Shown: positions 5,651-34,144 of the stretch, in pieces | Numbering within the stretch: position 1 is the first letter of the stretch | Layout: each line of letters starts with the position of its first letter | NCBI RefSeq assembly: GCF_900168115.1 | Contig: NZ_FUZC01000023.1 | Coordinates: 1-43,105 of the forward strand | Length of the DNA: 43,105 nt | Source: Salegentibacter salinarum | Lineage (GTDB): Bacteria > Bacteroidota > Bacteroidia > Flavobacteriales > Flavobacteriaceae | Reading direction: 5' to 3' | The notes under the pieces: model-generated | Told to the model about the DNA's origin: nothing | Database searches by the model: none | The model's input: the letters and a program-made list of their open reading frames with translations, nothing else | Program-made: the position numbers and the translations under genes

Positions 5651-8600
5651 ATGAAAAAAATTTTACAACGATTAATGTTATTAACCTTCGTTCTTGGCGG
5701 TTGGGTTATACATGCCCAGGAAAGACAGGTTTCTGGCGTGGTGGCTGATGAAATTGGTATGCCAATACCTGGGGTTACTGTCCAGGAGAAAGGGACGTCC
5801 AACGGAACCGTTACAGATTTTGACGGGGAATTTTTACTCTCAGTTTCGGATAGCAATAATACTGTTTTGGTCTTTTCCTTTTTAGGCTATGAATCGAAAG
5901 AAGTTACTATTGCATCTCAAACAACATTTAATATTACCCTGGAGGAAGATTCAGAAAGTTTAGATGAGGTGGTAGTTGTGGGTTATGGTACACAAAGGGA
6001 AGAGAACCTCGTTGGTTCCGTTAGTACCGCAGATCTGGGTAACATCGAAGCGCGCCCTTCAGCCGATATTGCCAGTTCTCTGCAAGGAGCAGTGCCGGGA
6101 CTAAATATTCGTTCGGCCTCCGGTGGTGATCCCTCAACAACTCCAGAGATCAATATTCGAGGTTTTAATTCCATAAATGGTGGCTCTCCGCTTATTATAA
6201 TTGATGGGATAGAAGGTGATCTCGCTAATATAAATCCCAATGATATTGAAAGTGTCACAGTATTAAAAGATGCAGGTGCAGCGGCAATATATGGAGCCAG
6301 GGGATCCTTTGGGGTTGTCTTAATAACTACCAAATCAGGTAAGGAAGGTGAGTTCAATGTGGAGTACTCCAATAATATCGGCTTTACAACAAATACTACC
6401 CGAACGGATTTTGTGACTAACCCCTATACCTATGCGAAATGGGTAGATGAAGCTATAGGTTCATACCATAGTGGCTGTTACGTTTGTTATGAAGATGAAG
6501 ACTGGGAAATTGCCCAACAAGTGGGTAATGGTGAACGTGAACCTTTTTATGAACAACAACCTGACGGAACCTATAAATTCTTTGGAAACACTGATTTTTA
6601 TGATGTTTTATTTAAAGATCGAAGATCGCATCAAATAAATAATATATCTGTATCAGGGGGTTCCGAGAAATTAAGGGGGGTAATTTCTGGAAGAACATAT
6701 GAAAGAGAAAAAATTCAAAATATCCAGGATGCTGAAATGAAACGATACAATCTCCAACTTAAACTGACTGCTAATCCTTATGAATGGTTGGAATTAAATG
6801 CTTTAAGTAGGTTTAGCAGTAGGTACGATGAACAGTATGCCGGAACCAAAAATGGTTGGGGTGATGAATTTGGGGTTAGTAAATGGCGAGACCTTTTTCC
6901 TAATCATCCCGCTTTTGTCGATGGATATGGTGTAAGTGTAGGCCGTACCGGAAACGGATATGTTGGTCGACTAGGAGCCTTAAAAGAAGGCGCAGCTCAT
7001 CGTCAATGGACATATGAAAATCAAACGAACACCCTGGGTGCTGAAATAAAGCCGCTCAAAGGTTTAGTGTTAAATATGAATTATAACTATAGCATTGACA
7101 GAACAGATAGAACATTTTCTTATAAACCTTTTAGTTACCTATCAGGAAATAAACTAGAATTATTAGAAAACGAAGGCCTTAATCGGCATAATGAATATCG
7201 TTGGAAAGATTATTATACTGCGATAAATATTTACGGAACCTATACCACGGAAATCGCAGATAAACATAATTTTAAAGTAATGCTCGGTTTTAACCAGGAA
7301 GAGTTTGACCGGGATAGAGTGGGAATGAGAATTGAGGATTTACTCACCAGGGATAAGGCTAATATAGCTTTTGGAACCGAAATGTTAGATATGGAAGGTT
7401 CTACCCTGGAGTGGGCTATTCAAGGGTATTTTGGTCGTTTTAACTATGATTACGACGGTAAGTACCTTTTGGAAATTAATGCTCGCTACGACGGGTCATC
7501 ACGTTTTCCTGAAGAAAACAGATGGGGGTTATTTCCATCTATTGCCGGGGGATGGATCATCGATAAGGAAGACTTTTGGACGCCCTCTTTGGAAAGTGTA
7601 ATTTCTTCTTTAAAGCTAAAAGCCTCTTATGGTAAATTGGGAAATCAAAGTGTAGGTGTAAATACCTTTAGGCAGTTAATTGGAATGGGTAGAACAAACT
7701 GGCTATTTGATGGTGAACAGAGTAACTATGCCAGGGTACCTTCTCCATTGCCGGCTAATATTGGCTGGGAAAAAATAACTTCCACAAATGTTGGTCTAAA
7801 TATGGGATTCTTTGAGGATAAATTAACTACCTCGCTTGAAGTATACGAACGTAATACACGGGATATGTATTTGCCTGGTCAACCGCTTCCTGCAGTTTTT
7901 GGTGCATCAGAGCCTAGAAGAAATTATGCAGCTATGCGAAATAGAGGTTTTGAAGTAACTTTAGGCTATAATGATGAATTTATGGTTTTAGGTTCTGAAT
8001 TATCTTTTAGTGCTCAAGCAAATGTGTCCAATAACAGGGCAGAAATAACAAAATTTGATAACCCAAATGGGTTATTAAGTACTTTTTATGAAGGGCAGCA
8101 AGTAGGTGAAATATGGGGATATCGTATCGATGGCCAGTTTCAGTCAGATGAGGAAGCTGCAGCTTTTCAAAGTGAATACGGAAGAGATAACCTGTTTAGA
8201 GTTTATAGGGGAATTCTGGATTACGGATCAAATAGTGACTGGAATCTCTTAAGAGGAGGAGACCTTAGGTATGTAGATGTTGATGGTGATGGAAGTATAG
8301 ATAATGGAAATAATACCCTGGAAGACCATGGGGATTTGGTACCAATTGGAAATGCATTGCCGCAATTTCCATTTGGTTTTAATATAAGTGCAACCTGGAA
8401 AAATATTGACCTTAGCGTTATTGGTCAAGGGGTTGCAAAACAAGATTGGTACCCTAACGGGCCATTGTACTGGGCAACTTTTCACAGACCTTATACATCT
8501 TTTATCAGAAAAGATCTATTGGATCAGGTATGGGATCCTGCACATCCAAACGATCCAAATAGAATCTACCCACAAAGGCAAAGAGCATATAATGCTTTAA

Positions 8601-8923
8601 GTAACGGTCGTATGTCTTATAATTATAACGATCATTTTTTAACCAATATTGGTTATTTAAGAATTAAAAACCTAACCCTTGGATACACCATTCCACCAAC
8701 TTTTACTAAAAAGGTCAATATAAAGAGGCTAAGAGTTTTTCTTAGTGGAGAAAATATTTTCACGTGGAGTTTTGGAGGTTTAACGAAATACCTGGACCCG
8801 GAAGAGGTGGGAGCCCACGTAAGTTATTCCAATCCAAATAGTGTTAGTGGAAGATCGGCAACGGATACCCAATTGTATCCAATGGGTAAAACCTTTTCGG
8901 CAGGTCTACAAATCAACTTATAA
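5651..8923 (+). CDS. SusC/RagA-family TonB-dependent outer-membrane transporter (SusC1)
   Basis: Outer-membrane barrel that imports oligomeric ligands with its SusD partner, powered by TonB. The upstream in-frame codon at 5630 is TTG. The ATG at 5651 begins a proper signal peptide (MKKILQRLML to HAQ), so I chose it, giving 1090 residues. Order of parts: carboxypeptidase-regulatory-like domain (about 24-100; VSGVVADEIGMPIPGVTV), TonB-box-like LDEVVVVGYGTQ (about 105), plug with IIDGIEGDLANINPNDIES and GAAAIYGARGSFGVV, then a long beta-barrel ending in FSAGLQINL. The next gene is the matching SusD, 53 bases downstream. The barrel gives no direct clue to the ligand. The neighbours (sulfatase, glycerophosphodiesterase) suggest a charged glycoconjugate. 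Confidence 0.95.
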   Translation: MKKILQRLMLLTFVLGGWVIHAQERQVSGVVADEIGMPIPGVTVQEKGTSNGTVTDFDGEFLLSVSDSNNTVLVFSFLGYESKEVTIASQTTFNITLEEDSESLDEVVVVGYGTQREENLVGSVSTADLGNIEARPSADIASSLQGAVPGLNIRSASGGDPSTTPEINIRGFNSINGGSPLIIIDGIEGDLANINPNDIESVTVLKDAGAAAIYGARGSFGVVLITTKSGKEGEFNVEYSNNIGFTTNTTRTDFVTNPYTYAKWVDEAIGSYHSGCYVCYEDEDWEIAQQVGNGEREPFYEQQPDGTYKFFGNTDFYDVLFKDRRSHQINNISVSGGSEKLRGVISGRTYEREKIQNIQDAEMKRYNLQLKLTANPYEWLELNALSRFSSRYDEQYAGTKNGWGDEFGVSKWRDLFPNHPAFVDGYGVSVGRTGNGYVGRLGALKEGAAHRQWTYENQTNTLGAEIKPLKGLVLNMNYNYSIDRTDRTFSYKPFSYLSGNKLELLENEGLNRHNEYRWKDYYTAINIYGTYTTEIADKHNFKVMLGFNQEEFDRDRVGMRIEDLLTRDKANIAFGTEMLDMEGSTLEWAIQGYFGRFNYDYDGKYLLEINARYDGSSRFPEENRWGLFPSIAGGWIIDKEDFWTPSLESVISSLKLKASYGKLGNQSVGVNTFRQLIGMGRTNWLFDGEQSNYARVPSPLPANIGWEKITSTNVGLNMGFFEDKLTTSLEVYERNTRDMYLPGQPLPAVFGASEPRRNYAAMRNRGFEVTLGYNDEFMVLGSELSFSAQANVSNNRAEITKFDNPNGLLSTFYEGQQVGEIWGYRIDGQFQSDEEAAAFQSEYGRDNLFRVYRGILDYGSNSDWNLLRGGDLRYVDVDGDGSIDNGNNTLEDHGDLVPIGNALPQFPFGFNISATWKNIDLSVIGQGVAKQDWYPNGPLYWATFHRPYTSFIRKDLLDQVWDPAHPNDPNRIYPQRQRAYNALSNGRMSYNYNDHFLTNIGYLRIKNLTLGYTIPPTFTKKVNIKRLRVFLSGENIFTWSFGGLTKYLDPEEVGAHVSYSNPNSVSGRSATDTQLYPMGKTFSAGLQINL

Positions 8924-8976
8924 TTTTCCCTTTGAAATAAAAGGTTATCAAAATATAAAAATTAACAATATTCAAA

Positions 8977-10734
8977 ATGAAAAAAATAGATATACAGAAA
9001 AAGATGATTCGTGTATCCTCGTTAGTGGCTTTATCGCTTTTATTGATAAGTTGTGATGCCGATATACTAGACCAGCCACCAGGGGATGCAGTGACTTCAG
9101 ATGAATTTTTCAATACGGGGGCGGACCTGGAAGCATATACTAATGACTTATATGATGTTTTGCCAACTACATCCGTATATATGGACGATTCAGATTCAGA
9201 TAATATTTTAGGTGTAAGTGCAGGAGATAGACTTAGAGGAACACGACGAGTACCTACCGACCGAGGTAGCGGAGGATGGTCCTGGGGTTATTTGCGTAGG
9301 ATTAATTATTTTCTTGAAAATTACAATAGGGTAGATGATGTCGAAGCTACGGCAAAGTATTCGGGAATTGCAAAATTCTTCAGGGCTTACTTTTATTTCG
9401 AAAAAGTACAACGATTTGGAGATGTGCCTTGGTATGGGGAGGTAATCAACCAGGATGACGAGGAATTATTATCAAAAGCCAGGGATTCACGAGAATTGGT
9501 AATGGATTCTATTATGGCTGATATTGATTATGCCATTGAAAATATACCGGCTGAGAAAGAATTAAACCGGATAACCAAATACACTGCACTTATATTAAAG
9601 GCTCGTATCGCTCTCTTTGAAGGAACATATAGGAAATATCACGGATTGGATGATTATGAGAGATTTTTAGAAGAAGCAATATCAGCGGCAGAGCAGTTGA
9701 TGGATTCAGGGGCATATGAACTTTATACTAGTGGTGGGGAGGACCAGGCATACCAGGAACTATTCGCAATGGAGGATCAGAATATGACTGAAACTATTTT
9801 AGCGGTGGATTTCGAATTTGGATTAAGAACACATGATCTAGCATACCGAATGACAGCGCCTACCCAGGGAAGATGGGGCTTGTCAAAAGACCTGGTGAAT
9901 AGTTATTTAATGACTGATGGTACGCCCTTTACTGATCAATCTGGTTATGAAACCATGGAATTTTATGAAGAGATGCAAAATCGCGATCCCCGATTGACCC
10001 AGACTACAGCGGGACCTAACTTTTCCACGTATGGTTCTGATGAACCTGAACCAGTCAATTTGGATATAACACGGACGGGTTACCGGGTAATAAAAGCCCT
10101 TCCTCCAAAAGGACCGCAATGGGGGTCCGGTGGATCATTTAATGACGTAATACTTTTCCGATATGCTGAAGCCTTGTTGATCTATGCTGAAGCAAAAGCA
10201 GAGCTCGGCACGTTAACCCAGGGGGATCTTGATATTTCAATTAATAAATTGAGAGATCGGGTAGGGTTACCACATTTAAATATGGCAGAGGCTAATGCCA
10301 ATCCTGATCCTTATCAGGGTAGCCTTTATGAGAAAGTAGAAGGACCAAATAAAGGGGTGATACTGGAAATTCGCCGCGAACGAAGAGTAGAGATGGTTAA
10401 TGAAGGTTTGCGTTGGGATGATCTTATGAGATGGAAAGAAGGTCAAATAATTGAAGACCCCATTGAAGGAATATACTTTTCAGAACTTGGGGCTCATGAC
10501 TTTGATAATGATGGTAATTATGATGTGTATGTTCACGATGGAGACGCTTCCGGCGCGCCAGATGAGGTAACCACCACCATAAACATTAGTGAAAGACAAC
10601 TTACAAATGGTACATCTGGAAATTTACTGTTATTTGAAGGTGGAAATTTTGATGAAACCAGGGATTATCTTTATCCCTTACCACTGGAAGATTTAGAACT
10701 GAATGAAAATTTAGAGCAGAACCCAGGTTGGTAA
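8977..10734 (+). CDS. SusD/RagB-family nutrient-binding outer-membrane lipoprotein (SusD1)
   Basis: Surface lipoprotein that captures the ligand and forms the lid of SusC1. The signal peptide ends in the lipobox LLLISC (Cys26), followed by DADILDQPPGDAVTSDEFF, the usual SusD start. The TPR-like SusD body is present (YFLENYNRV, KFFRAYFYFEKVQRFGDVPW). The C-terminal part has EIRRERRVEMVNEGLRWDDLMRW and ends in LEQNPGW, both typical. An internal ATG at 9004 is an alternative start, but the first ATG keeps a positive N-terminus and follows susC1 closely. A strong terminator follows at 10804. Confidence 0.95.
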   Translation: MKKIDIQKKMIRVSSLVALSLLLISCDADILDQPPGDAVTSDEFFNTGADLEAYTNDLYDVLPTTSVYMDDSDSDNILGVSAGDRLRGTRRVPTDRGSGGWSWGYLRRINYFLENYNRVDDVEATAKYSGIAKFFRAYFYFEKVQRFGDVPWYGEVINQDDEELLSKARDSRELVMDSIMADIDYAIENIPAEKELNRITKYTALILKARIALFEGTYRKYHGLDDYERFLEEAISAAEQLMDSGAYELYTSGGEDQAYQELFAMEDQNMTETILAVDFEFGLRTHDLAYRMTAPTQGRWGLSKDLVNSYLMTDGTPFTDQSGYETMEFYEEMQNRDPRLTQTTAGPNFSTYGSDEPEPVNLDITRTGYRVIKALPPKGPQWGSGGSFNDVILFRYAEALLIYAEAKAELGTLTQGDLDISINKLRDRVGLPHLNMAEANANPDPYQGSLYEKVEGPNKGVILEIRRERRVEMVNEGLRWDDLMRWKEGQIIEDPIEGIYFSELGAHDFDNDGNYDVYVHDGDASGAPDEVTTTINISERQLTNGTSGNLLLFEGGNFDETRDYLYPLPLEDLELNENLEQNPGW

Positions 10735-10886: not shown

Positions 10887-12239
10887 ATGACAATTTTCAA
10901 AAAAATACTTTTGCTTCTCATAGGAATTACTGGGCCATCTTTTGGACAGGAAAGACCCCCGAATATAATTGTAATATTTGTAGACGACCTGGGTTATGGA
11001 GACCTCAGTTCTTTTGGTCACCCCACCATTCAAACGCCTTATATCGACCAAATGGCGCAGGAAGGTGCTAAGTTGTCCCAATTTTATGTTGGGGCTAGTA
11101 TATGCACACCTAGTAGAGCAGCCTTATTAACCGGGAGGTTACCTATTCGCAGCGGCATGGCTGGTTCAAAAAACAGTGGAAACGTTCTTTATCCAAGGTC
11201 TACAGGAGGTTTACCCCAATCTGAAAAAACTATAGCAGAAGCAGTTAAAGAGCAAGGATATACTACCGCAATAGTTGGAAAGTGGCATTTAGGGCATTTA
11301 CCCGAGTTTCTACCACTAAATCACGGATTTGATTACTATTTTGGAATTCCTTACTCTAATGATATGCTCCCTCCCCGTTATAAAAAAGCGCCTAAATTAC
11401 CACTTTATGAGAATAAAGAGATTATAGAAAACGACCCTAACCAGAAACTCTTAACTAAAAGGTATACTGAAAAAGTGGTTGATTTTATAAAAGCTAACAA
11501 GGATAATCCTTTCTTTTTGTACTATCCGAATAACTTTCCTCATACCCCATTACATGTTTCAGATGATTTTGAAAATAGAAGTAAAAGGGGATTATATGGA
11601 GATGTAGTAGAGGAAATCGACTGGAGCGTAGGAGAAATACTAAAAACTCTGAAGGAATTAAATATCGACGAAAACACTTTAGTGGTTTTTACCAGTGATA
11701 ACGGTCCCTGGCTTAAAAGAGGAAAAAACGGAGGCTCTGCCGGGCTACTTTATGAAGGCAAAGCTTCTACTTACGAAGGTGGGTTTCGAGTGCCTGCCGT
11801 TGTACGATGGCCAGGAAAGATTCCGGCAAATCAAACCTTTGATGCAATAACGAATGCGATGGACCTGTATCCAACGATTTTAAAACTTGTGGGGTCACCT
11901 TTGCCTGAGGATCGTACTCTGGATGGTGTAGACCTTATGCCATTATTGAGCGGAGAAGAAAAGAAGGCCAATGACGTTGTTTATTATTATTTAAGAGATG
12001 AGTTATATGCAATTAGAAAGGGTAGCTGGAAAGCTCATTTTATAACTAAGCCTTCCTATTCAAAGGAGAAGCCAAAAGTTCACAAAACTCCTAAATTGTT
12101 TAATATTGATGTCGATCCTTCGGAAAAATATGAAATTGGAGAACATCACCCTGAAATCATTGAAGAAATAAAAGATATCTATAAAGAACATCAAAAGACT
12201 ATAGAACCGGTTAAATCCCAATTAGATTTAGGGTATTAA
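10887..12239 (+). CDS. Secreted arylsulfatase-type sulfatase (formylglycine family S1)
   Basis: Hydrolyses a sulfate ester, probably in the periplasm. A signal peptide (to about residue 20, ending in SFGQ) precedes NIIVIFVDDLGYGDL, where Asp33/Asp34 bind the metal. CTPSRAALLTGR holds the sulfatase signature with Cys73 as the residue turned into formylglycine, so it needs an anaerobic sulfatase-maturing enzyme encoded elsewhere. Further active-site motifs: GKWHLGH, HTPLH and TSDNGPW. The length (450 aa) is normal. There are two close ATGs, and the second, at 10887, is the one in frame. Position after SusCD suggests that the imported ligand carries sulfate, though S1 sulfatases are broad and the exact subfamily cannot be set by eye. 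Confidence 0.93.
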   Translation: MTIFKKILLLLIGITGPSFGQERPPNIIVIFVDDLGYGDLSSFGHPTIQTPYIDQMAQEGAKLSQFYVGASICTPSRAALLTGRLPIRSGMAGSKNSGNVLYPRSTGGLPQSEKTIAEAVKEQGYTTAIVGKWHLGHLPEFLPLNHGFDYYFGIPYSNDMLPPRYKKAPKLPLYENKEIIENDPNQKLLTKRYTEKVVDFIKANKDNPFFLYYPNNFPHTPLHVSDDFENRSKRGLYGDVVEEIDWSVGEILKTLKELNIDENTLVVFTSDNGPWLKRGKNGGSAGLLYEGKASTYEGGFRVPAVVRWPGKIPANQTFDAITNAMDLYPTILKLVGSPLPEDRTLDGVDLMPLLSGEEKKANDVVYYYLRDELYAIRKGSWKAHFITKPSYSKEKPKVHKTPKLFNIDVDPSEKYEIGEHHPEIIEEIKDIYKEHQKTIEPVKSQLDLGY

Positions 12240-12371: not shown

Positions 12372-13301
12372 ATGAAAGTTATTAGATTACTATTATGTTC
12401 GATTCTTATCGCTTCATTCAGCTGTAAGAATAACGCTGAAAACAACCAGGATCACAGCCCGGAAAAGGATAATCCAGCGACCGGAAAAGTACAGGTCCAA
12501 GGGCATAGAGGGGATCGGGGTAATTTACCTGAGAATTCCATACCTGCTTTTTTAAGTGCAGTAGAGAAAGGTGCAGACGTTCTTGAATTGGATGTTGTGG
12601 TCTCTCAGGATAAAAAAATTGTTGTTTCTCATGAACCTGTTATGTTAGCTTTGTATATGCTAACCCCGGATGGAGATAGTATCGCTAAAGAAAATGAGAA
12701 AGATTATAATCTTTATAAAATGGATTATGATAGTATCCGGAAATTCGACAGTGGTTCGAGAAAAAACCGATTATTCCCAGATCAAAAATCTCAAAAAACG
12801 TATAAACCTTTATTAAGTGAGGTAATCGATACGGTGGAAAATTATATTCAGGTCAATGATTTAGATGAGGTTAAATATAATATTGAAATTAAATCTTCCG
12901 AAAGGAATTATGGAATTTTTCAGCCGGAACCAGATGAGTTTGTTGACCTGGTGATGAATATAGTTGTAGAAAAAGGCATTAAAGATAAGGTTAACCTTCA
13001 GTCATTCGATGTTCATATTTTACAAATTTTAAATGAGAAATATCCTGATACCGAAGTTGCGTATTTGGTCTCAAAGGAAGGTATAGATAAGAATTTAGAG
13101 AAACTTGAATTCGTTCCCGATATTTACAGCCCTAATTATAAGCTACTAAAGAGTAAGGAAGTTGTAGATTCTATTAAAGAACGTAATATGGTTTTAATTC
13201 CATGGACAGTAAATGAAGAGGAAGATATAAATAGGATGTTGGAACTGGAAGTGGATGGTATTATTACTGATTATCCAGAAAGAGTACTGAATAAAATATA
13301 G
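12372..13301 (+). CDS. Glycerophosphodiester phosphodiesterase lipoprotein (GDPD)
   Basis: Predicted to cleave glycerophosphodiesters to glycerol 3-phosphate and an alcohol, on the outer face of a membrane. The lipobox IASFSC (Cys18) is followed by a Glu/Asn/Asp-rich linker. Catalytic features of the GDPD barrel are visible: HRG (His45-Gly47), ENS (Glu54), LELD (Glu72, Asp74) and the second catalytic His in VVSHEP (His87). Many relatives have HD at this point. Here it is HE, a variant I associate with a flavobacterial subgroup. The C-terminal motifs IPWTVNEEEDINRMLELEVDGIITDYP are standard. A terminator follows. Together with the opposite-strand glp operon it supplies the first step of a glycerol-phosphate route. 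Confidence 0.92.
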   Translation: MKVIRLLLCSILIASFSCKNNAENNQDHSPEKDNPATGKVQVQGHRGDRGNLPENSIPAFLSAVEKGADVLELDVVVSQDKKIVVSHEPVMLALYMLTPDGDSIAKENEKDYNLYKMDYDSIRKFDSGSRKNRLFPDQKSQKTYKPLLSEVIDTVENYIQVNDLDEVKYNIEIKSSERNYGIFQPEPDEFVDLVMNIVVEKGIKDKVNLQSFDVHILQILNEKYPDTEVAYLVSKEGIDKNLEKLEFVPDIYSPNYKLLKSKEVVDSIKERNMVLIPWTVNEEEDINRMLELEVDGIITDYPERVLNKI

Positions 13302-19804: not shown

Positions 19805-19836
19805 CAAATATATTATCAAAATGAAACTAAAACAAA
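19805..19836 (-). promoter_or_regulatory. Predicted promoter of the glpD-glpK-glpF-phosphatase operon
   Basis: On the minus strand TTTG (19836-19833) and TATATTTG (19812-19805) are separated by exactly 20 bases. This is a full match to the Bacteroidota consensus TTTG-N19-21-TAnnTTTG. The distance from the box to the glpD ATG is 24 bases. Confidence 0.65.
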
Positions 19837-19888
19837 CAAAAAGTAATTTTTTATACTTATTTTTGATTTTAAATTATTTTGTTTGTTT
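19830..19888. repeat. Perfect 12-bp inverted repeat overlapping the glp promoter
   Basis: AAACAAACAAAA at 19830-19841 and its exact reverse complement TTTTGTTTGTTT at 19877-19888, with 35 bases between (47 bases centre to centre). The first arm covers the -33 element of the glp promoter. Such spaced T-rich arms would suit a looping, repressor-type DeoR-family regulator, but this is inference. Confidence 0.5.
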
Positions 19889-25655: not shown

Positions 25656-26420
25656 ATGAAAAAATTAATAGTAAGTGTATTGACTGTAGCAAGCCTGATG
25701 GCCTGTAAAAATGATGGTAAAAACCCAGATAAGGAAGCCGAAATAAAAGAAAAAGATAATGCAGAATCTATAACGGGTAATGAAAAAGACGAAGAGTGGC
25801 AATATCTTTTTGATGGTGAAAGTGCTGAGGGCTGGCGTGGTTATAATGAAAAGAATGCAGATGCCCTTCCTGAGGGATGGATTGTGGAGGACGGCACTTT
25901 GAAATCATTGGGAGAAGGTGGTGATATTGGTGGTGATATCGTATATGGAGAAGAGGAGTTTGACAATTTTGAACTTTACCTGGAATGGAAAATATCACCG
26001 GAAGGTAATAGCGGGGTTTTCTACCACGTAATTGAAGACGAAGCCTATGACTCCCCGTATTTTGCAGCGCCCGAGTATCAAATAATTGATCAGAAAGGTT
26101 TCCCTCAGGAATTACAAGCCTGGCAATCTATTGGGGCAGATTACGGAATGTATGACCCTGAATATGATGAAGATGATCTTAAAGAAGTGGGAGAATGGAA
26201 TACCACCAGAATCAGGTTTACTGAAGATAAAGTTACTTATTGGCTAAATGGTGAAAAAACTGTAGAATTTGAACCCTGGTCAGAAGAATGGAAGCAAAAA
26301 AAGAAGGAAGGAAAATGGAAAGATTTTCCTGATTACGGTAAGGCTAAATCCGGTCTTATTGGCTTACAGGATCACGGAAGTTATACCTGGTTCAGAAATA
26401 TAAAGATTAAAAAGCTTTAG
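25656..26420 (+). CDS. DUF1080 lipoprotein (3-keto-glycoside hydrolase-like)
   Basis: A 254-residue lipoprotein: signal with lipobox LMAC (Cys17), a Lys/Glu/Asp-rich linker to about residue 45, then one DUF1080 concanavalin-like domain. Visible family marks are WQYLFDGESAEGWRGY, LYLEWKISPEGNSGVFYHV, APEYQIIDQKG, EWNTTRIRF, VTYWLNGEKTVEF and GLIGLQDHGSYTWFRNIKIK. DUF1080 members have been assigned as 3-keto-disaccharide/glycoside hydrolases that complete bond cleavage after oxidation by a Gfo/Idh/MocA partner. It sits between such a partner and a second DUF1080 gene, forming a three-gene unit. The substrate is not evident. Confidence 0.88.
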   Translation: MKKLIVSVLTVASLMACKNDGKNPDKEAEIKEKDNAESITGNEKDEEWQYLFDGESAEGWRGYNEKNADALPEGWIVEDGTLKSLGEGGDIGGDIVYGEEEFDNFELYLEWKISPEGNSGVFYHVIEDEAYDSPYFAAPEYQIIDQKGFPQELQAWQSIGADYGMYDPEYDEDDLKEVGEWNTTRIRFTEDKVTYWLNGEKTVEFEPWSEEWKQKKKEGKWKDFPDYGKAKSGLIGLQDHGSYTWFRNIKIKKL

Positions 26421-26421: not shown

Positions 26422-27012
26422 ATGTATAGGAGTTCTCTAGCCGTCGTATTCTTCCTTTTTGTTTCAATGGTCAATGCCCAGGAAAGTTTATTTAATGGCC
26501 ACGATCTTACCGGATGGGAAATTTATGGAACTGAAAAGTGGTATGTAGATAACGCTGTATTAGTAGCAGAAAGTGGTCCGGACGAAGCTTATGGCTACCT
26601 GGCAACAAAGAAAAATTATAAAAACTTCGAATTAGAACTGGAGTTCTTGCAAGAGGCCAATGGCAATAGTGGGGTTTTTTTTAGGTCTTCCCTGGAAGGT
26701 ACAAAAATTTCCGGTTGGCAGGTTGAAGTTGCTCCCCCGGATTTACATACCGGTGGGGTTTATGAATCTTACGGTAGAGGCTGGCTCGTAAAACCTAAAC
26801 CACGGAAGGAAAAAATCCTCAAGTTTGGGAAATGGAACCAGTTAAAAATTAGGGTGAAAGACGGAGAGGTTACCACCTGGTTAAATGGCCGGAAAATGAT
26901 CAATTTTTTAGATGAAAAAATAGAACAGGCTAACGGAAAAATTGCCTTACAAATCCACGATGGAGGCGGTATAAAGGTTCTGTGGCGAAATATTAACCTA
27001 AGACACCTTTAG
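26422..27012 (+). CDS. DUF1080 protein, periplasmic (3-keto-glycoside hydrolase-like)
   Basis: A 196-residue single-domain protein with a cleavable signal (VNAQ near residue 20), so soluble in the periplasm rather than lipidated like its neighbour. DUF1080 marks: SLFNGHDLTGWEIYGTEKW, LELEFLQEANGNSGVFFRS, GWQVEVAPPD, KFGKWNQLKIRVKDGEVTTW and KIALQIHDGGGIKVLWRNI. The ATG lies one base after the upstream stop, which indicates translational coupling. Having one anchored and one free copy suggests either two substrates or two steps at different sites. The two copies are clearly diverged, so this is not a recent duplication. Confidence 0.87.
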   Translation: MYRSSLAVVFFLFVSMVNAQESLFNGHDLTGWEIYGTEKWYVDNAVLVAESGPDEAYGYLATKKNYKNFELELEFLQEANGNSGVFFRSSLEGTKISGWQVEVAPPDLHTGGVYESYGRGWLVKPKPRKEKILKFGKWNQLKIRVKDGEVTTWLNGRKMINFLDEKIEQANGKIALQIHDGGGIKVLWRNINLRHL

Positions 27013-27142: not shown

Positions 27143-30100
27143 ATGACAAAAAACATTAAGAAGGTACTTATAGTACTTTGTACCCTTTTTAGCTGGGTGG
27201 GCTTTGCTCAGGAGAGAGAAGTATCCGGAAGGGTATTAGATGAAGATGCTTTACCTATCCCAGGAGTTACAGTCTCAGAAGATGGTACTTCTAATGGTAC
27301 AGTAACCGACATGGAAGGTGAGTTTGAATTTAGTGTGACAGATGATGAAAATACTACTTTGATTTTCTCTTTTTTGGGTTTTCAAACTCAGGAGATTATA
27401 CTAAATGGCCAAACTGAATTTGAAATAGTTTTAGAAGAAAGTTCTGAAGGTCTTAACGAAGTAGTAGTGGTAGGATACGGTACTCAAAAGAAGGCTAATT
27501 TAACCGGAGCGGTAAGTCAGGTTGATTCCGAAACTCTGGAAGATCGTCCTATTACTAATGTAAGTTCCGGTCTACAGGGTTCAATGGCAGGGGTTACTGT
27601 TACAGGAGCTTCCGGAGCTCCTGGTAATAATTCCGGCGACATCAGGATTCGTGGAATTGGCACATGGGGGAATGCTTCTCCTTTAATAGTTATAGACGGT
27701 GTACCGGGTGGAAATTTAGATATATTGAACCCAAGTGATATAGAAAGTATATCTGTATTAAAAGATGCCGCTTCTTCCTCTATTTATGGTGTTAGAGGAG
27801 CGAACGGAGTTATTGTGGTGACTACAAAATCTGGAAAAGGGGGAGAACCTACCCTTTCTTACAATACCTATTATGGTATGCAACGTCCCACAGCTATTCC
27901 TGAGAAACTTGGTTCCCCGGAATATATGGAGTTGTTAAATGAGTCACAAATCAATGTGGGTAGAAACCCGACTTACTCTGAAGAAGAGATCCAAATTGCG
28001 CGAGATGGTTCAGATCCCAATTATTACGCGAATACAAATTGGGTAAATGAAGTGTATAAAGACTACGCTCCTCAGGAAAGTCATAACCTGAGTGTGAATG
28101 GAGGTGAAGAGAATCTCAATTACTATCTATCTTATGGTTTACTTAAAGAAGGTGGTTTGGTAGTAGGTGATAAGTTTGAAGCCAAACGACATAATATGAG
28201 AGCTAAGGTAAGTACTACTTTATTAGATAGGATTGAATTAAATACCAACCTCGGTTATATTGACAGAAATTATACCGGGTCTTCTCAGGGATTCGCTCCA
28301 CTTTACCAGGCCCTTACTGTCAGGCCATTGGTCCCGGTTAGGAATACAAATGGAGGTTGGGGATATATAGGAGGTTCAAGTAATCCTGTAGCTACAGCCT
28401 ACGAAGCGGGAACTAATGATTTTACTTCTGAGGAATTTACTGCTAATGTTGATGCAGCAATTAGAATTTTCGAAGGTTTTAAAATTCGCGGACGTTATGG
28501 ATTGGTGAAATACAACTCAAGAAGAAATGTATTTGATAGAACGGTTAATTATTATGATGCAGATACTGGTAATCTTGTTTGGCAGATTAATAATCCGAGT
28601 CAGATCACAACCAGTAGCTATAAAGGTACCTACCAGACCTTTGTCGGTACGGCTGAATTCGATAGAACCTTTGCTGAAGATCATAGTGTTCAGGCCTTAT
28701 TAGGGGTTTCCCAGGAGGAAACCATAAACGATGATTTATCGGCTTCAAGAACTGATGTAGCGTCTACTTCTGTGGGCCATATTAACCTTGGGACTGATAA
28801 TCAAAGAAATAGTGGGAGTAATGCACAAAATGCCTTACAATCTGTATTTGGAAGATTAAATTATGCATTCAAAGACAAGTATTTAGCCGAAGCAAATTTT
28901 AGATATGATGGATCTTCTCGTTTTGCTAAAGATGTACGTTGGAATTTGTTTTCTTCCGCTTCACTTGGGTGGGTTTTTACCGAAGAAGAATTTATAGAAA
29001 ATGATATTTTGGATTTTGGAAAAATTCGTGCTTCGTACGGTACTCAGGGAAATGATAGGATTGCCGACTGGGCATTTATGGATGTGCTCGGGCCGGTAAA
29101 TACAATGCCAATAGGCAATGCTGTAACCATTGGTTATAGACAAACGGCTGTTGGGAATGAACTCTTAACCTGGGAATCCGCTGAAAAATTAAATGTTGGT
29201 TTGGATCTTAGCTTTTTAGATAATCGATTGAATATTACAGCAGATTATTTTGAGAATAATACCAACAATATATTATTGAGATTACCTATTCCAGATGTTT
29301 TTGGAGGCCCTGCTTACCCATATCAAAATGCCGGTTCTGTAGAAAATACAGGTTGGGAACTGGAGCTGGGATGGAGAGATCAAATAAAAGAATTTAATTA
29401 TGATTTGAATTTCAACATCTCCGATGTTCGTAACGAGGTTACTGACCTTGGTGGGACTGAACCTACTATTGACGACCGAATTCGAAGGGTAGGGGATCCC
29501 CTAGATGCATTTTACGGTTTAGTAGCTGATAGGATCGCACAGGAATCTGATTTCACTTATGATGCCGGTTCGGATACTTATACTCCAAACTTCCCTTATA
29601 TTCAGGGGGACCCGGTACAACCAGGAGATTTAATTTACAAAGATTTAAATGGAGATGGGGAAGTAGACCTGGTTAACGATAGGAAAGTTATTGGAAGTCA
29701 TATTCCACGATATACCTACGGTTTCCGTGGAGATTTTGACTACAAAAATTTTGATTTAAGTGTTTTTATTCAAGGTGTAGGAAAAGTGAACGGGCTTCTG
29801 ACAGGAACGGCGCGTCATGCATTAATTTCTGAAAGTGCTATTCCACAAGCTGTTCATTTGGATCGATGGACTCCTGAAAACACAAATGCCTCCTATCCCC
29901 GATTGACCTATCAACAATCTTATAATCAAAGATTATCTACTTATTGGTTAGAAGATGCATCTTATATAAGATTGAAAAATGTTCAGGTTGGATATACACT
30001 ACCGGAGAATTTTACAAGCAGATTTAGAGTAGATCGTTTAAGAGCGTATGTGTCGGGCGAAAATTTACTGACGTTTACTGATTATTTTGATGGATACGAT

Positions 30101-30181
30101 CCTGAATCTCCCGTAAGTAGTGGAAGTTTTTATCCACAGATAAGGACATTTACTGTCGGTCTAAACATTAACTTAAAGTAA
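27143..30181 (+). CDS. SusC/RagA-family TonB-dependent transporter (SusC2)
   Basis: Second TonB-dependent outer-membrane importer, 1012 residues. The signal peptide ends in GFAQ, followed by EREVSGRVLDEDALPIPGVTV (carboxypeptidase-regulatory-like domain). Then come LNEVVVVGYGTQKKANLTGAV (TonB box and plug start, from about residue 104), VIDGVPGGNLDILNPSDIES and AASSSIYGVRGANGVI, and a barrel ending in FTVGLNINLK. The N-terminal 130 residues are close to those of SusC1, but the barrel differs, so a different ligand or ligand part is likely. The partner SusD2 starts 6 bases after its stop. No exact promoter match lies in the 130-base gap before it, so it may be read through from the oxidoreductase unit. 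Confidence 0.95.
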   Translation: MTKNIKKVLIVLCTLFSWVGFAQEREVSGRVLDEDALPIPGVTVSEDGTSNGTVTDMEGEFEFSVTDDENTTLIFSFLGFQTQEIILNGQTEFEIVLEESSEGLNEVVVVGYGTQKKANLTGAVSQVDSETLEDRPITNVSSGLQGSMAGVTVTGASGAPGNNSGDIRIRGIGTWGNASPLIVIDGVPGGNLDILNPSDIESISVLKDAASSSIYGVRGANGVIVVTTKSGKGGEPTLSYNTYYGMQRPTAIPEKLGSPEYMELLNESQINVGRNPTYSEEEIQIARDGSDPNYYANTNWVNEVYKDYAPQESHNLSVNGGEENLNYYLSYGLLKEGGLVVGDKFEAKRHNMRAKVSTTLLDRIELNTNLGYIDRNYTGSSQGFAPLYQALTVRPLVPVRNTNGGWGYIGGSSNPVATAYEAGTNDFTSEEFTANVDAAIRIFEGFKIRGRYGLVKYNSRRNVFDRTVNYYDADTGNLVWQINNPSQITTSSYKGTYQTFVGTAEFDRTFAEDHSVQALLGVSQEETINDDLSASRTDVASTSVGHINLGTDNQRNSGSNAQNALQSVFGRLNYAFKDKYLAEANFRYDGSSRFAKDVRWNLFSSASLGWVFTEEEFIENDILDFGKIRASYGTQGNDRIADWAFMDVLGPVNTMPIGNAVTIGYRQTAVGNELLTWESAEKLNVGLDLSFLDNRLNITADYFENNTNNILLRLPIPDVFGGPAYPYQNAGSVENTGWELELGWRDQIKEFNYDLNFNISDVRNEVTDLGGTEPTIDDRIRRVGDPLDAFYGLVADRIAQESDFTYDAGSDTYTPNFPYIQGDPVQPGDLIYKDLNGDGEVDLVNDRKVIGSHIPRYTYGFRGDFDYKNFDLSVFIQGVGKVNGLLTGTARHALISESAIPQAVHLDRWTPENTNASYPRLTYQQSYNQRLSTYWLEDASYIRLKNVQVGYTLPENFTSRFRVDRLRAYVSGENLLTFTDYFDGYDPESPVSSGSFYPQIRTFTVGLNINLK

Positions 30182-30187
30182 AAAAAG

Positions 30188-31837
30188 ATGAAGAAAATAG
30201 TTGTATTTAGTGTGATACTGAGCATGTTTTGCTTAGTAGGGTGTGAAAAAGATTTTCTGGATCGAGCACCAAATGATGAACTAACTGATGAAACCTTTTG
30301 GGAGAACGAAGAACACCTTAGGTTGGCTGCGAATGCATTATATGCCAATGTGAAAGCTAAGAATACTGTTGATCAGGAAAATATGGGGGACAATACCTTG
30401 TGGCCTTCCACAACCCAGTATCAACGTATAGGAAGTGGAAATTACAATTCAGATTTAAATACCCTGAATACAGAATGGACCACACAATATCGCGGGATTC
30501 GCCAGGCTAATTCATTTTTGGCTAACTATCAAAAAGCAGAAGTTGATGATCCTTTGGTTGCTGAGAGATATGCTGCCGAAGTACGAGTGATAAGAGCATT
30601 AATGTACCTTTATATAACAGAATTCTGGGGCGATATGCCTTTAGTAACAGAGCCACTCAATATTGATGAGCTTATGATACCTCGAGATCCTAAAGAGGAA
30701 GTAGTGGATTTTGTACTCAATGATTTAGAAGATGCTGCTCAGTACCTACCTGAAGAGATACCTTCAGGAGAAAATCTGGGTAGAATGAATAAAGGTGCAG
30801 CCCTTGCATTAAAAGCCAGGATGGCATTGTATAATGAAAGATACGATGTTGCTGAAGATGCTGCTAAAAGAGTGATGGATATGGGGGTTTATGAATTGTA
30901 TTCTACCGGAAATCCAGAAAGTGATTACTATGATTTGTTTACTTATGAAGGAAAACTTGCCAATGGTAATAACAAAGAAACTATTATTGCCAGGCTATCT
31001 TTAGAGGATGAAGCTATGCATAATCTTAGCCGGGAAATACACGTTCCCGATCAGGTTATTCGATGGAACCCAACTAAATCCCTGGTAGATTCTTATTTAA
31101 TGGCTGATGGATTACCAATTGATAAATCGCCTTTATACAGTGTTGAAACTTATGAAGACGTTTTTGAAAATAGAGATCCAAGAATGACACAAACTATTTT
31201 AGAACCAGGTTCTGAATGGGGTGGTCGTTATGATGGCCGGGAAAATAATGAAAATCCAGAAATTTTTGAAGTTCCAAAATTTCAATCTGATGGGCGAGGT
31301 GCTGTAACACTGACCGGATATTATTTTACGAAATATGCAGAACCTACTGCAGTACCTACTTATAATCGTGATTTTAATGATATTCATTTACTGCGTTATG
31401 CGGAGGTTTTATTAACGTATGCTGAAGCCAGATTTGAACAGGGAGTTTTATCTCAGGAAGACCTGGATATATCCATCAACCTCTTAAGAGAAAGAGTGGG
31501 AATGCAACCTATGGTTTTGGCTGATTTGGAATCAAATGGAATGGATATAAGAGAGGAAATCAGAAGGGAAAGAAGAGTTGAATTAGCCCTGGAAGGTCAA
31601 AGATACTTTGATGTTAAACGCTGGAGACAGGGAGAATTATTAGCTGCGGATGTCAAAGGAACCAATGTGGAGTGGTTGCCAAATCCTGAAATGGCTGATA
31701 ATTTAAGGACAGATGAGAATGGATTTATTATAGCCTTAACTGACCAGGTTTTTGATCCTGAAAGACACTATCTCTGGCCAGTACCCCTTCCCCAATTGGA
31801 AAGGAACCCCGATTTAGTACAAAACCCAGGATGGTAA
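30188..31837 (+). CDS. SusD/RagB-family nutrient-binding lipoprotein (SusD2)
   Basis: Ligand-capturing partner of SusC2 on the cell surface, 549 residues. The lipobox MFCLVGC gives Cys19, followed by EKDFLDRAPNDELTDETFW, the standard SusD opening. The body motifs RQANSFLANYQKAE, AEVRVIRALMYLYITEFWGDM and ALALKARMALYN are present. The C-terminus carries IRREIRRERRVELALEGQRYFDVKRW-like sequence and ends NPDLVQNPGW. Its stop overlaps an upstream possible start of the next gene (ATGGTAA), so the two are in one operon. Confidence 0.95.
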   Translation: MKKIVVFSVILSMFCLVGCEKDFLDRAPNDELTDETFWENEEHLRLAANALYANVKAKNTVDQENMGDNTLWPSTTQYQRIGSGNYNSDLNTLNTEWTTQYRGIRQANSFLANYQKAEVDDPLVAERYAAEVRVIRALMYLYITEFWGDMPLVTEPLNIDELMIPRDPKEEVVDFVLNDLEDAAQYLPEEIPSGENLGRMNKGAALALKARMALYNERYDVAEDAAKRVMDMGVYELYSTGNPESDYYDLFTYEGKLANGNNKETIIARLSLEDEAMHNLSREIHVPDQVIRWNPTKSLVDSYLMADGLPIDKSPLYSVETYEDVFENRDPRMTQTILEPGSEWGGRYDGRENNENPEIFEVPKFQSDGRGAVTLTGYYFTKYAEPTAVPTYNRDFNDIHLLRYAEVLLTYAEARFEQGVLSQEDLDISINLLRERVGMQPMVLADLESNGMDIREEIRRERRVELALEGQRYFDVKRWRQGELLAADVKGTNVEWLPNPEMADNLRTDENGFIIALTDQVFDPERHYLWPVPLPQLERNPDLVQNPGW

Positions 31838-31848
31838 ATCTTATTCAA

Positions 31849-32697
31849 ATGATTGGAGTTAAATACATAATAGGAGCCGTTTTAATGGCGGCTTCTTTTA
31901 TCTCTTGTGAGGAAAGTGGTAATAAAACTACCACGGCTGATGAAAATAAAGCGGAAAATGAAATGATAGTAGACCGCACCCTAAGGGTGATGTCTTATAA
32001 TATACATCACGCAAACCCTCCCGCTGAAGAAGATAAGATTGATATCGCCGCTATCGTTAAGGTAATTAAAGCAGAAGATCCTGATTTAGTTGCTCTTCAG
32101 GAAGTAGATTTTAGTACTGAGAGGTCGGGAGAGGGGAATCAGGCAGAATTGATTGCTAAAGCCCTGGATATGGAATATTATTTTGCCAAAGCTATTGATT
32201 ATGATAATGGTGAATATGGGAACGCAATTTTATCAAAATTCCCTATAAAAGAGGGTGAAATTTTAGACCTACCTAACCACCCGGAGGATAATACTGAAAA
32301 TAGAGTGGTAGCTTTAGGCTTGATTGAGATCAACGAAGATCAAAATATTCTGTTCGGCAGTACCCACCTAGATTATAAAAAGGATTCAAAGAGCAGAATA
32401 TTACAGGTGAAGAAGTTAATTGAGAGTGCAAATGAACGAAACGAGGCCTTAATCCTAGGAGGTGATTTTAACGATGATCCGGACTCAGAAACCATTCAGT
32501 TGTTGGACTCTGAACTGGAAAGGACCTGTAAAACCTGTCCCCCGACTATTCCGGTAAAGAATCCTCAACGAGCCATTGATTTTATTTATTACAAACATCC
32601 TCAAACTAAATTTCAAGTAAAATCTCATAAGGTTATTCCCGAAGAATACGCTTCAGACCATCGCCCGGTTTTTGCGGAAATTGATATTGTTAAGTAG
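31849..32697 (+). CDS. Endonuclease/exonuclease/phosphatase-family lipoprotein (phosphodiesterase-like)
   Basis: A secreted, lipid-anchored metal phosphoesterase of the EEP fold (DNase I/sphingomyelinase/inositol-phosphatase group). An ATG at 31831 overlaps the susD2 stop. The ATG at 31849 gives the better lipoprotein signal, ending at AASFISC, and I use it. Fold motifs in order: RVMSYNIHHA (Asn), DLVALQEVD (Glu), GNAILSKFPI, LFGSTHLDYK, LILGGDFNDDP (Asp, Asn), RAIDFIYYK and SDHRPVFAEI (Asp, His). All catalytic residues are present. As a surface lipoprotein in a SusCD operon it is unlikely to be a DNA-repair enzyme. A phosphodiester in the imported glycoconjugate is the likely target. A terminator follows. 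Confidence 0.88.
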   Translation: MIGVKYIIGAVLMAASFISCEESGNKTTTADENKAENEMIVDRTLRVMSYNIHHANPPAEEDKIDIAAIVKVIKAEDPDLVALQEVDFSTERSGEGNQAELIAKALDMEYYFAKAIDYDNGEYGNAILSKFPIKEGEILDLPNHPEDNTENRVVALGLIEINEDQNILFGSTHLDYKKDSKSRILQVKKLIESANERNEALILGGDFNDDPDSETIQLLDSELERTCKTCPPTIPVKNPQRAIDFIYYKHPQTKFQVKSHKVIPEEYASDHRPVFAEIDIVK

Positions 32698-32764: not shown

Positions 32765-32899
32765 ATTGAGAACTTACAGTCGTATTCAGAATATATTTTC
32801 GGTTGAAAACTATAATGAATCCCAGTATTAAATGGAAATGGGAAAAAGTGATTTCATACCTGCCATAAAAGATTCTTTTATTAAGATAATATTCAAGAA

Positions 32900-34144
32900 A
32901 TGACAAAAGAAACCAATAAGTCAATTATAATAATCGGAGTTTTATTCTTTATTTTCGGGTTTGTTACCTGGTTGAATTCCGTCCTTATACCTTATCTGAA
33001 AATAGCCAATGAACTCAATAATTTCCAGTCTTATCTGGTAGCTTTTGCTTCCTATATCTCCTATTTAGTCATGGCAATACCTTCCGCCTGGGTTTTAAAG
33101 AAAATTGGATTTAAAAAGGGTATGTCATTAGGTCTAGTGGTAATGGCAATTGGAGCTCTGGTTTTTGTCCCTGCCGCATTGGTGAGGAATTATACTTTCT
33201 TCCTTTTCGGCCTGTTTGTACAGGGTACTGGTCTCGCCCTATTACAGTCTGCGGCCAACCCATATATTACCATTCTTGGGCCCATTGAAAGTGCAGCAAA
33301 AAGAATAAGTATTATGGGTATTTGTAATAAAATTGCTGGTGCTTTAGCTCCTATCGTCTTCGGAGCTATATTGTTAAAGAATATGGATAAGCTTGAGACA
33401 AAGCTGATCAATCTTAATCCTGTGGAAAAAGCTGCTGAACTCGATGCCCTTTCCGCCAGGGTTATTACGCCATATATAATCATGGCAGTGATTCTAAGTG
33501 GTCTCGCTGTTTTGATATATTATTCTACGCTTCCCGAAATTGAAACAGATGGCGAAGACGAAGAAGTGGCTGTTGCAAATAAGAACAAAACGAGCGTTAT
33601 GCAGTTTCCTAACTTATTATTGGGGACCCTGGCCATGTTTTTATACGTGGGTGTAGAGGTTATCGCAGGAGATACCGTTATAAGTTATGCCAGGGATGGT
33701 CAGGATATCGCAACCGGTACAGCAAAGTTTTTTACTTCATATACTCTTGTCGCCATGATTATAGGATATTTAATTGGAACTGTGACTATCCCGCGATTTA
33801 TAAGCCAGGAAAAGGCGCTTCAAATTTCTGGGATTCTTGGAATTATCCTGGGTCTTGCTGCAATATTTGGAGATGGCTATTTTTCAGTTTTATGTATTTC
33901 CTTACTGGGCCTTGCAAATGCATTAGTATTTCCTGCTATATGGCCACTCGCTTTAAAAGGTCTAGGCCGATTTACGAAAATGGGTTCTTCCTTTTTAATT
34001 ATGGCCCTGGCAGGTGGAGCAATTCTACCGTTAGTGTATGGCTACCTGGCCGATCAATTTGATCCTCAACAAGCTTATTGGATTATTATTCCCTGCTATT
34101 TATATATCTTGTTTTTCGGTACAAAAGGGTATAAAATGAAATAA
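32900..34144 (+). CDS. MFS sugar transporter of the FucP/GluP type
   Basis: Inner-membrane proton-linked sugar porter with about 12 hydrophobic segments in 414 residues. It opens with IIIIGVLFFIFGFVTWLNSV, then LIPYLKIANELNNFQSYLV, the hallmark of the fucose/glucose-galactose permease group. GLALLQSAANPYITILGP is the family loop, and GLGRFTKMGSSFLIMALAGGA follows in the second half. Single gene after a terminator, with no clear promoter. Inferred to bring in the monosaccharide released by the neighbouring periplasmic enzymes. The exact sugar cannot be read. Confidence 0.92.
   Translation: MTKETNKSIIIIGVLFFIFGFVTWLNSVLIPYLKIANELNNFQSYLVAFASYISYLVMAIPSAWVLKKIGFKKGMSLGLVVMAIGALVFVPAALVRNYTFFLFGLFVQGTGLALLQSAANPYITILGPIESAAKRISIMGICNKIAGALAPIVFGAILLKNMDKLETKLINLNPVEKAAELDALSARVITPYIIMAVILSGLAVLIYYSTLPEIETDGEDEEVAVANKNKTSVMQFPNLLLGTLAMFLYVGVEVIAGDTVISYARDGQDIATGTAKFFTSYTLVAMIIGYLIGTVTIPRFISQEKALQISGILGIILGLAAIFGDGYFSVLCISLLGLANALVFPAIWPLALKGLGRFTKMGSSFLIMALAGGAILPLVYGYLADQFDPQQAYWIIIPCYLYILFFGTKGYKMK

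Follow-up and report, generated by a model that had tools for sequence, protein, structure and literature searches.

A Sus-type locus of Salegentibacter salinarum with an embedded glycerol operon and a possible role in glycerophosphodiester use

Gene content of the locus

The subject of this text is a putative glycerophosphodiester-utilization locus of the marine bacterium Salegentibacter salinarum. It lies on one entire contig of 43105 bases (G000:C37), here called the window, which carries two SusC/SusD transporter pairs (at 5651-10734 and 27143-31837) among phosphoesterase and glycerol genes. An earlier sequence-only reading of this DNA had described the two pairs, a GDPD lipoprotein (GDPD being a glycerophosphodiesterase family), the phosphomonoesterase PafA, a calcineurin-like enzyme, a protein of the endonuclease/exonuclease/phosphatase (EEP) family, a sulfatase, an SGNH esterase and a GlpF-GlpK-GlpD route; protein family searches, from which all gene identities in the window are taken (coordinates are those of its forward strand), recovered every one of them in its place. 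They also brought out genes that the reading had overlooked: a DeoR-family regulator, a LamG-domain regulator, a Gfo/Idh/MocA dehydrogenase, two PF06439 hydrolases and a sugar transporter of the major facilitator superfamily (MFS). The genes fall into three modules: A (SusC1-SusD1, GDPD and the calcineurin-like protein, here CalN), B (regulator, Gfo/Idh/MocA dehydrogenase, two 3-ketoglycoside hydrolases, SusC2-SusD2, EEP) and C (glpD-glpK-glpF-pafA-SGNH), the last placed between GDPD and CalN. The genes of modules A and C, with the sulfatase that accompanies them, are as follows.

5651 to 8923, forward: SusC1, TonB-dependent outer-membrane transporter (TIGR04056, 832 bits; the open reading frame, ORF, opens with TTG at 5630, with ATG at 5651)
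8977 to 10734, forward: SusD1 lipoprotein (PF07980; lipobox by pattern)
10887 to 12239, forward: sulfatase (PF00884, 233 bits; CTPSR motif)
12372 to 13301, forward: GDPD lipoprotein, glycerophosphodiesterase (PF03009, 132 bits against a cut-off of 23.6; lipobox by pattern)
13425 to 14099, reverse: secreted SGNH esterase, O-acetylesterase or lysophospholipase-like (PF13472)
14225 to 15862, reverse: PafA phosphomonoesterase, an extra copy in the glp operon (NF042991, alk_phos_PafA, 812.8 bits against a cut-off of 650)
15897 to 16631, reverse: GlpF aquaglyceroporin (PF00230, TIGR00861)
16638 to 18128, reverse: GlpK glycerol kinase (TIGR01311, 730 bits; sole match in the genome at E <=1e-60)
18131 to 19780, reverse: GlpD glycerol-3-phosphate dehydrogenase (PF01266, PF16901; the ORF opens with TTG at 19819, likely start ATG at 19780)
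20145 to 21722, forward: CalN, secreted calcineurin-like phosphoesterase with MetallophosN and MetallophosC domains (PF16371, PF00149, PF16370)

The five genes of module C are co-directional, with intergenic gaps of 2, 6, 34 and 125 bp; the earlier reading had placed pafA in one operon with a complete glpF-glpK-glpD set. SusC1, SusD1, GDPD and CalN share the other strand and are not contiguous, since the oppositely oriented glp-pafA-SGNH block separates GDPD from CalN. Sequence motifs are intact in the enzymes: GDPD retains its HRG, PENS and ELDV motifs, the sulfatase CTPSR, CalN its GDPQ, GDLVGND, GNHD and SAHTH motifs, and the EEP protein GGDFN and SDHRP, all of which we take to be catalytic. 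PafA, besides exceeding its family cut-off, aligns with the active site of 5tj3 (EmPafA) and keeps the residues matching the nucleophile Thr, the Asn and the Lys/Arg pair of that enzyme. The SGNH protein is closest to the solved chains 6njc and 7pzg (E ~4e-47), named sialate O-acetylesterase or lysophospholipase L1. No PDB entry matches the CalN sequence at E <=0.001; the core of the predicted CalN model (pLDDT 88, built from 48 sequences) resembles Rv0805, with a TM score of 0.70 normalized by target length, as well as purple acid phosphatases, a likeness that does not discriminate between monoesterase and diesterase. The absence of a glycerol 3-phosphate permease noted earlier also held, in that no protein of the whole genome exceeds the cut-off of TIGR00881, which we take to be the GlpT-type permease model (best score 69.7 against 407.75 bits); a Ugp-type ATP-binding cassette importer was not searched for.

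Conservation of the phosphodiester unit and of the glycerol insertion

To follow module A beyond the window, we scanned with an alignment of nine Salegentibacter CalN sequences and analyzed the best 80 of 535 confirmed relatives, counting same-strand runs with gaps of <=400 bp. These loci were picked by likeness to the window CalN, and the proportions hold for those 80 only. The CalN run includes SusC in 65, GDPD in 40, and SusC, SusD and GDPD together in 39 of the 80, sometimes with further genes between SusD and CalN. Because all four genes share a run in 39 loci spread over Bacteroidota, among them loci of Flavobacterium, Gelidibacter, Algibacter, Leeuwenhoekiella, Mesonia and others, SusC-SusD-CalN-GDPD is a real, widely conserved phosphodiester unit. 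The SusD of these runs is of the window type (PF07980) in 13/80 and of a second type in 52/80, identified as PF12771 by a Pfam check of one such locus (in G129). Genes for an extracytoplasmic function (ECF) sigma factor and/or FecR accompany 32 of the 39 complete runs.

Fifteen Salegentibacter genomes were compared, including the window's own and one (G131) that is 61% complete. CalN occurs in eight and GDPD in twelve of them (E <=1e-60). Among the named records listed, the nearest CalN is that of the marine type strain S. agarivorans DSM 23515 (G120), whose locus is almost identical in make-up and whose SusC1 is 97% identical to the window's. SusC1-SusD1-CalN-GDPD also stand together in S. 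flavus (G122), G126, G128 (where the SusC ORF is short) and G130, which carries two copies of the locus, one with a broken CalN. The two G130 copies (L055 and L073) closely resemble each other and lie close to both ends of the contig, possibly an assembly artefact. The S. flavus locus retains ECF, FecR and an STN extension on SusC1. No STN match is found in the window SusC1, a loss shared with genomes outside the window clade, since the SusC1 of G126 also lacks STN and those of G130 lack the extension.

The glycerol genes are distributed far more narrowly. GlpK at >=91% identity is present in 3/15 genomes, namely the window genome, S. agarivorans and S. maritimus (G125), a fourth genome having a GlpK paralogue at 43%. 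In all three species glpD-glpK-glpF-pafA-SGNH sits between GDPD and CalN, conserved at 81-99% protein identity. PafA itself occurs in 13/15 genomes and in two copies in four (the three glpK-bearing genomes and G130, whose copies sit elsewhere); the three glp-linked copies form a clade with 99/99 support, set apart from the second PafA that these species carry, in a tree rooted at the midpoint only. Orthologues of the window DeoR (97-99%) are likewise restricted to the two other glpK-bearing species, the next best in the genus being 49% identical. GlpK, the regulator and the extra PafA thus arrived, or were retained, together. The gene-order conservation that the sequence-only reading had looked to for support thus exists at two depths: widespread for module A, and limited to three species for the full insertion.

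As a control for the glycerol link, GlpK was surveyed in 120 genomes of the family at E <=1e-120 and found in 54, including the window's. From the 53 others, 56 GlpK loci were fetched and 55 annotated (L172 was dropped, its GlpK ORF having been lost to the overlap filter); the set keeps FGGY kinases of 41-44% identity (L238-L243), which may be other kinases, and six loci cut by contig ends (L209, L210, L212, L213, L225 and L237). The glp run holds SusC in six of the 55. In two other genera (genomes G070 and G119; loci L169+L206 and L207+L173, the only glp loci extended to 40 kb) a single run contains SusC, SusD, a GDPD::GH16 fusion (GH, glycoside hydrolase family), EEP, GH3 and GlpD-GlpK-GlpF, with a sulfatase also in G070 and an adjoining DeoR relative in G119. 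These runs resemble the window in joining SusCD, GDPD, EEP and glp, and differ from it in the fusion of GDPD to a glucanase, the presence of GH3, the lack of CalN and PafA, and the low identity of GDPD and EEP. The fusions are 69% identical to each other, and the one of G119 shares only 25% identity with the window GDPD. Comparable functions were thus brought together at least twice from different genes, although G070 and G119 may share one origin. GDPD matches at 26-29% near glpK in L171 (where the neighbor is an HI0933-like flavoprotein), L174, L179 and L181 proved to be a different GDPD on the opposite strand and were not counted as support.

Other arrangements emerged from the same survey. 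In four further genera (L187, L232, L234, L235) one run holds SusC-SusD, a protein of 588-598 aa, an SSF symporter, GlpK, GlpD and a protein of 1102-1123 aa; the smaller protein of L187, the one tested, has a melibiase match of 26.4 bits, just below the cut-off of 27, and a galactosyl-glycerol (floridoside-type) locus is our guess for such runs. At L170:212-13689, GH36, two SASA esterases and PhoD directly precede GlpD-GlpK-GlpF, followed by two GH3-like ORFs.

A DeoR-family regulator and candidate operators

Upstream of SusC1 lies a regulator with relatives beside glpD in other genera, and two candidate operators were located.

3069 to 3830, forward: DeoR-family regulator, GlpR-like (DeoRC, HTH_DeoR)
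5420 to 5436, reverse: putative DeoR/glp operator-like site before SusC1 (width-17 matrix, rank 5 in the window)
19824 to 19840, forward: putative DeoR/glp operator before glpD (outscores each of the 393 background upstream regions in all three glp species, with identical letters)

The window DeoR scores below the cut-offs of the curated models (PRK10906, 117.4 against 331; GlpR_Halo, 187.9 against 300; AgaR, 258.6 against 260), and its assignment to the glp type comes from linkage: relatives at 57-62% identity stand divergently beside glpD in other genera, in five of the 56 fetched glpK loci. DeoR-family genes also occur in runs with FGGY paralogues in five of the 56. In the window clade this glp-type regulator adjoins SusC1, at the position where S. 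flavus carries ECF/FecR. The order GlpD-GlpK-GlpF together with a DeoR relative is that of other Flavobacteriaceae; in contrast with an ordinary glp operon, the window's is embedded in a SusCD-phosphodiesterase locus, has its regulator beside SusC1 and has pafA and SGNH appended.

A AAACGAAANNAAANGAA-like motif was derived from the DNA preceding glpD in five loci of other genera (L172, L173, L176, L177, L178), with an information content of 13.3 as against 10.3-11.0 in six shuffled sets. The best SusC1 site lies ~220-230 bp from the start; upstream regions of 200 bp missed it, and scoring was repeated with 300 and 400 bp. Sites before SusC1 score 11.8-16.2 in the three glp species and 3.7-8.4 before SusC1 orthologues in genomes without glp (five copies, four genomes; the upstream region in G128 is unsure, given the short ORF). 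The motif is strong before glpD and moderate before SusC1, and it weakens before the SusC1 orthologues of genomes without glp; these matches moderately support a shared control of glp and SusC1. The upstream regions of Gfo and SusC2 gave ordinary scores, with no sign of shared control of module B by the glp motif.

The interval between DeoR and SusC1 (3831-5629) is 1.8 kb without a long ORF; similar DNA is present in S. agarivorans and mostly absent from S. maritimus. On the strength of a short ORF, a porin remnant was considered upstream of SusC1; two probes (L114 and L136, neither a clear porin) matched nothing in the loci of the window, S. agarivorans and S. maritimus, and the idea was dropped.

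Proposed route and competing explanations

The conservation of module A, the co-occurrence of the inserted genes and the parallel set in two other genera together lead us to favor, with some reserve, a Sus-type locus for eating glycerophosphodiesters as a source of carbon (and phosphate). We infer the route in all its reactions, localizations, substrates and controls from the gene content, conservation, insertion and motif matches that were observed. SusC1D1 would carry the diester through the outer membrane, either free or attached to an oligosaccharide; cleavage by the GDPD lipoprotein would release glycerol 3-phosphate together with an alcohol or sugar; PafA would strip the phosphate, GlpF would let the glycerol in, and dihydroxyacetone phosphate would be made from it by GlpK and GlpD. 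CalN would be the constant second phosphoesterase, acting on the remaining phosphate ester, while the SusC2D2-EEP module with its 3-ketoglycoside enzymes probably handles the glycosyl part. The repressor beside SusC1 probably couples import to glycerol 3-phosphate. This is in outline the import, cutting, dephosphorylation and glycerol-uptake logic of the sequence-only reading, to which the conserved unit, the three-species insertion, the regulator and the two-genus parallel lend support. A lipid head group, a glycerophospho-glycan and a teichoic acid are all compatible with it as substrate.

Several observations weigh against this reading. The full gene set is lineage-specific, confined to a single clade, and one evolutionary event probably accounts for the glp-pafA insertion in the three related species; the sulfatase and the MFS transporter are not constant even there, the sulfatase being present in two of the three glp-bearing species and not found in the S. 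maritimus locus, and the transporter not found in the 50 kb examined in S. agarivorans. None of the 53 other GlpK genomes has a PafA match <=50 kb from GlpK (nearest 55.6 kb, G020) or the window GDPD type near it, in lists compared by eye and limited by contig breaks, and neither CalN nor PafA is held by any glp run of the 55 annotated loci. The G070 and G119 loci are not orthologous to module A (25% identity for GDPD, a value for the G119 fusion, and 24% for EEP). As to regulation, the proportion of background regions (n=392) scoring at least as high as the SusC1 site is 0.26% in S. agarivorans, 1.8% in the window and 2.8% in S. maritimus, a moderate result only, and the best match in S. maritimus is a different sequence. 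The width-17 matrix ranks the glpD site second in the window; the top match of the whole window falls inside the Gfo gene, and ranks 3 and 4 fall in SusC2 and at the glpK/glpD junction. With a width-21 matrix the glpD site drops to rank 9 and the SusC1 site falls outside the top 14.

The most serious competing explanation is that the substrate is a glycan bearing glycerol-phosphate groups, with modules A and B stripping these groups and then removing sugars by 3-keto chemistry; we regard it as possible though on balance doubtful. The genes of module B are these.

21945 to 24191, forward: probable membrane regulator with a secreted N-terminal part, a LamG domain (PF13385), a likely transmembrane segment and a C-terminal winged-helix/BTAD-like part (membrane and C-terminal assignment by inspection)
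24292 to 25638, forward: Gfo/Idh/MocA dehydrogenase with a Tat-type signal (PF01408; TAT signal 21.3 bits against a cut-off of 16.7; best solved matches 8tdf/8tdh)
25656 to 26420, forward: 3-keto-disaccharide hydrolase, probable lipoprotein by inspection (PF06439, 162.7 bits, cut-off 26.8; 8tda match)
26422 to 27012, forward: 3-keto-disaccharide hydrolase, secreted (PF06439, 132.1 bits, cut-off 26.8)
27143 to 30181, forward: SusC2 transporter (PF07715, PF00593)
30188 to 31837, forward: SusD2 lipoprotein (PF07980, 176.6 bits; lipobox by pattern)
31831 to 32697, forward: EEP-family phosphoesterase lipoprotein (PF03372, 92.9 bits; lipobox by pattern; 7 bp overlap with SusD2)

The combination of a Gfo/Idh/MocA dehydrogenase with PF06439 hydrolases is shared with the BT2157-type 3-ketoglycoside pathway (BT2157-2160). 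The window genes differ from that pathway in that the dehydrogenase lies far under the cut-off of the BT_2158 glycoside 3-dehydrogenase family (140.4 against 750) and the neighbors are SusCD and EEP. PF06439 (DUF1080) is described as a ketoglycoside hydrolase in PMC9007349. The earlier placing of the second SusCD pair in a phosphodiester set needs correcting in one respect: besides EEP, the overlooked 3-ketoglycoside genes stand in its run. SusC2-SusD2-EEP adjoins CalN in Salinimicrobium marinum (SusC2 78% identical) and in two of three Rufibacter loci (SusC2 49%), EEP lies within the CalN run in 5/80 loci, and the window genome has a second SusC-SusD-EEP-CalN locus on contig C17 (L205:2346-10675) with no GDPD match in the 20 kb fetched. 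The partner of CalN is thus either GDPD or EEP, and the window has both.

The glycan explanation gains from the GDPD::GH16 runs with GH3, EEP and glp in two genera, the G119 fusion matching a solved beta-1,3(4)-glucanase (7wwc) over nearly its whole length at E 3e-155, and from a congener (G031) with SusC-SusD-GH16-phosphodiesterase-like-GDPD. Gfo of the window type lies <=10 kb from CalN in five of the eight CalN-bearing Salegentibacter genomes. Glucans substituted with phosphoglycerol do exist, the osmoregulated periplasmic glucans being an example (PMC10514313). Yet the SusCD runs of the window showed no endo-acting glycoside hydrolase, and the core of module B (regulator, Gfo and both 3-ketoglycoside hydrolases) occurs in two other genera (G094, G021) with no CalN or GDPD in the 32-40 kb examined. 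Of the glycan-active enzymes that mark a polysaccharide utilization locus, the window has the 3-ketoglycoside hydrolases with SusCD2, and GH35 at the contig edge only.

It is unlikely, in our judgment, that module A is instead a phosphate-scavenging system that hydrolyzes diesters for their phosphate, with glycerol use a by-product. The closest known system to the window locus is nonetheless of this kind, the phosphate utilization system (PUS) of Flavobacterium johnsoniae, whose PusCD loci with phosphodiesterases are induced by depletion of inorganic phosphate (PMC8115612). In a PUS, a SusCD-like pair stands beside phosphodiesterases or a phosphomonoesterase in place of carbohydrate-active enzymes, and the window likewise has a SusCD-like pair with co-localized genes for both phosphoesterase types. 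PUSI contains pf00149 and pf16670 proteins and PUSII contains PhoA1, which carries pf13653 (GDPD_2 in Pfam), although the main text of that paper never uses the word GDPD. A polyphosphate kinase gene in the 10-kb flanks of 5/80 CalN loci (L122, L127, L130, L141, L145), all five with GDPD, also fits phosphate scavenging. Against it, SusC1 in the window clade adjoins a glp-type DeoR at the place that ECF/FecR take in S. flavus, and the only close glpK of the genome sits in the window locus; what the window has beyond the PUS is glpFKD, a dedicated PafA and a regulator of glp type. The earlier reading knew of no described locus with this full set. Titles and abstract openings listed by searches of the open-access literature yielded no description of the window locus or of the SusCD-CalN-GDPD unit; SusCD loci with phosphodiesterases are known from the PUS.

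PafA offers a second point of comparison (PMC8812569). In F. johnsoniae it permits growth on sugar phosphates, dephosphorylation freeing the carbon part for use in Bacteroidetes; phosphoglycerol serves that organism as a phosphorus source and not as a carbon source, because, according to the authors, it can use the carbon part only to a reduced extent or not at all. The window PafA differs in standing in a run with glpFKD and adjoining GDPD, and the locus would thereby add a glycerol route to PafA-type use of phosphoglycerol.

Still less probable is a chance neighborhood of three unrelated modules, with glp-pafA inserted in a hot spot without functional link. Modules A and B are indeed separate in other genera and in some congeners, the full set is limited to three species, and S. 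maritimus carries a different second SusCD at the position of module B; but the insertion falls between two genes of module A and is kept at 81-99% identity in three species, the glp regulator, extra PafA and glpK co-occur, and SusCD and GDPD accompany glp at two other loci. Degradation of wall or lipoteichoic acid of Gram-positive bacteria is the least credible, for while GDPD matches 5t91 (E 1.4e-16), which we take to be the B. subtilis GlpQ teichoic-acid exohydrolase, and glycerol would be a product, the protein is much nearer to its closest solved chain, 3ch0 (E 4e-60), no dedicated teichoicase was recognized among the window genes, and a literature search found no paper that brings together three or more of the subjects SusD, teichoic acid, polysaccharide utilization and glycerol phosphate.

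Returning to glycerophosphodiester use, the recurrence of the core in many relatives suggests that glycerol-phosphate diesters may be carbon food and not only a phosphate source. We tentatively propose, as an idea that could well prove wrong, that such loci form a distinct class of Bacteroidota Sus systems, with the uncharacterized CalN (PF16371/PF16370) as the constant member and GDPD or EEP as the first cutter, and that some lineages recruited glycerol catabolism and its repressor to eat glycerophosphate-bearing glycans or lipid head groups for carbon. If so, organophosphate diesters would be a carbon food with outer-membrane import systems of their own in Bacteroidota, linking the cycles of phosphorus and carbon. 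For CalN, a phosphoesterase family in which sequence comparison reveals no solved relative, the conserved unit provides a role that can be tested; the two GDPD::GH16 loci hint at a polymer that may have been overlooked, beta-glucans decorated with glycerophosphate.

Some features of the window lie aside from these questions. The predicted structure of the LamG-domain regulator, folded without an alignment, was useless (mean pLDDT 33). A degenerate sensor domain related to phosphatidylinositol-specific phospholipase C (PI-PLC) was considered for this protein and is not claimed, the window protein having no PF00388 match; a distant relative (L066:8863-11277) has a weak N-terminal PI-PLC-X-like match (PF00388, E 0.019) below the cut-off. 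One further transporter gene follows module B.

32900 to 34144, forward: MFS sugar transporter of the gluP/FucP type (TIGR01272, 301.5 bits)

Three short consecutive ORFs at 2155-2983 (93, 74 and 85 aa) resemble remnants of a single gene, and at 36023-43105 an open frame of at least 2361 aa encodes a repeat-rich secreted protein that continues past the contig end.

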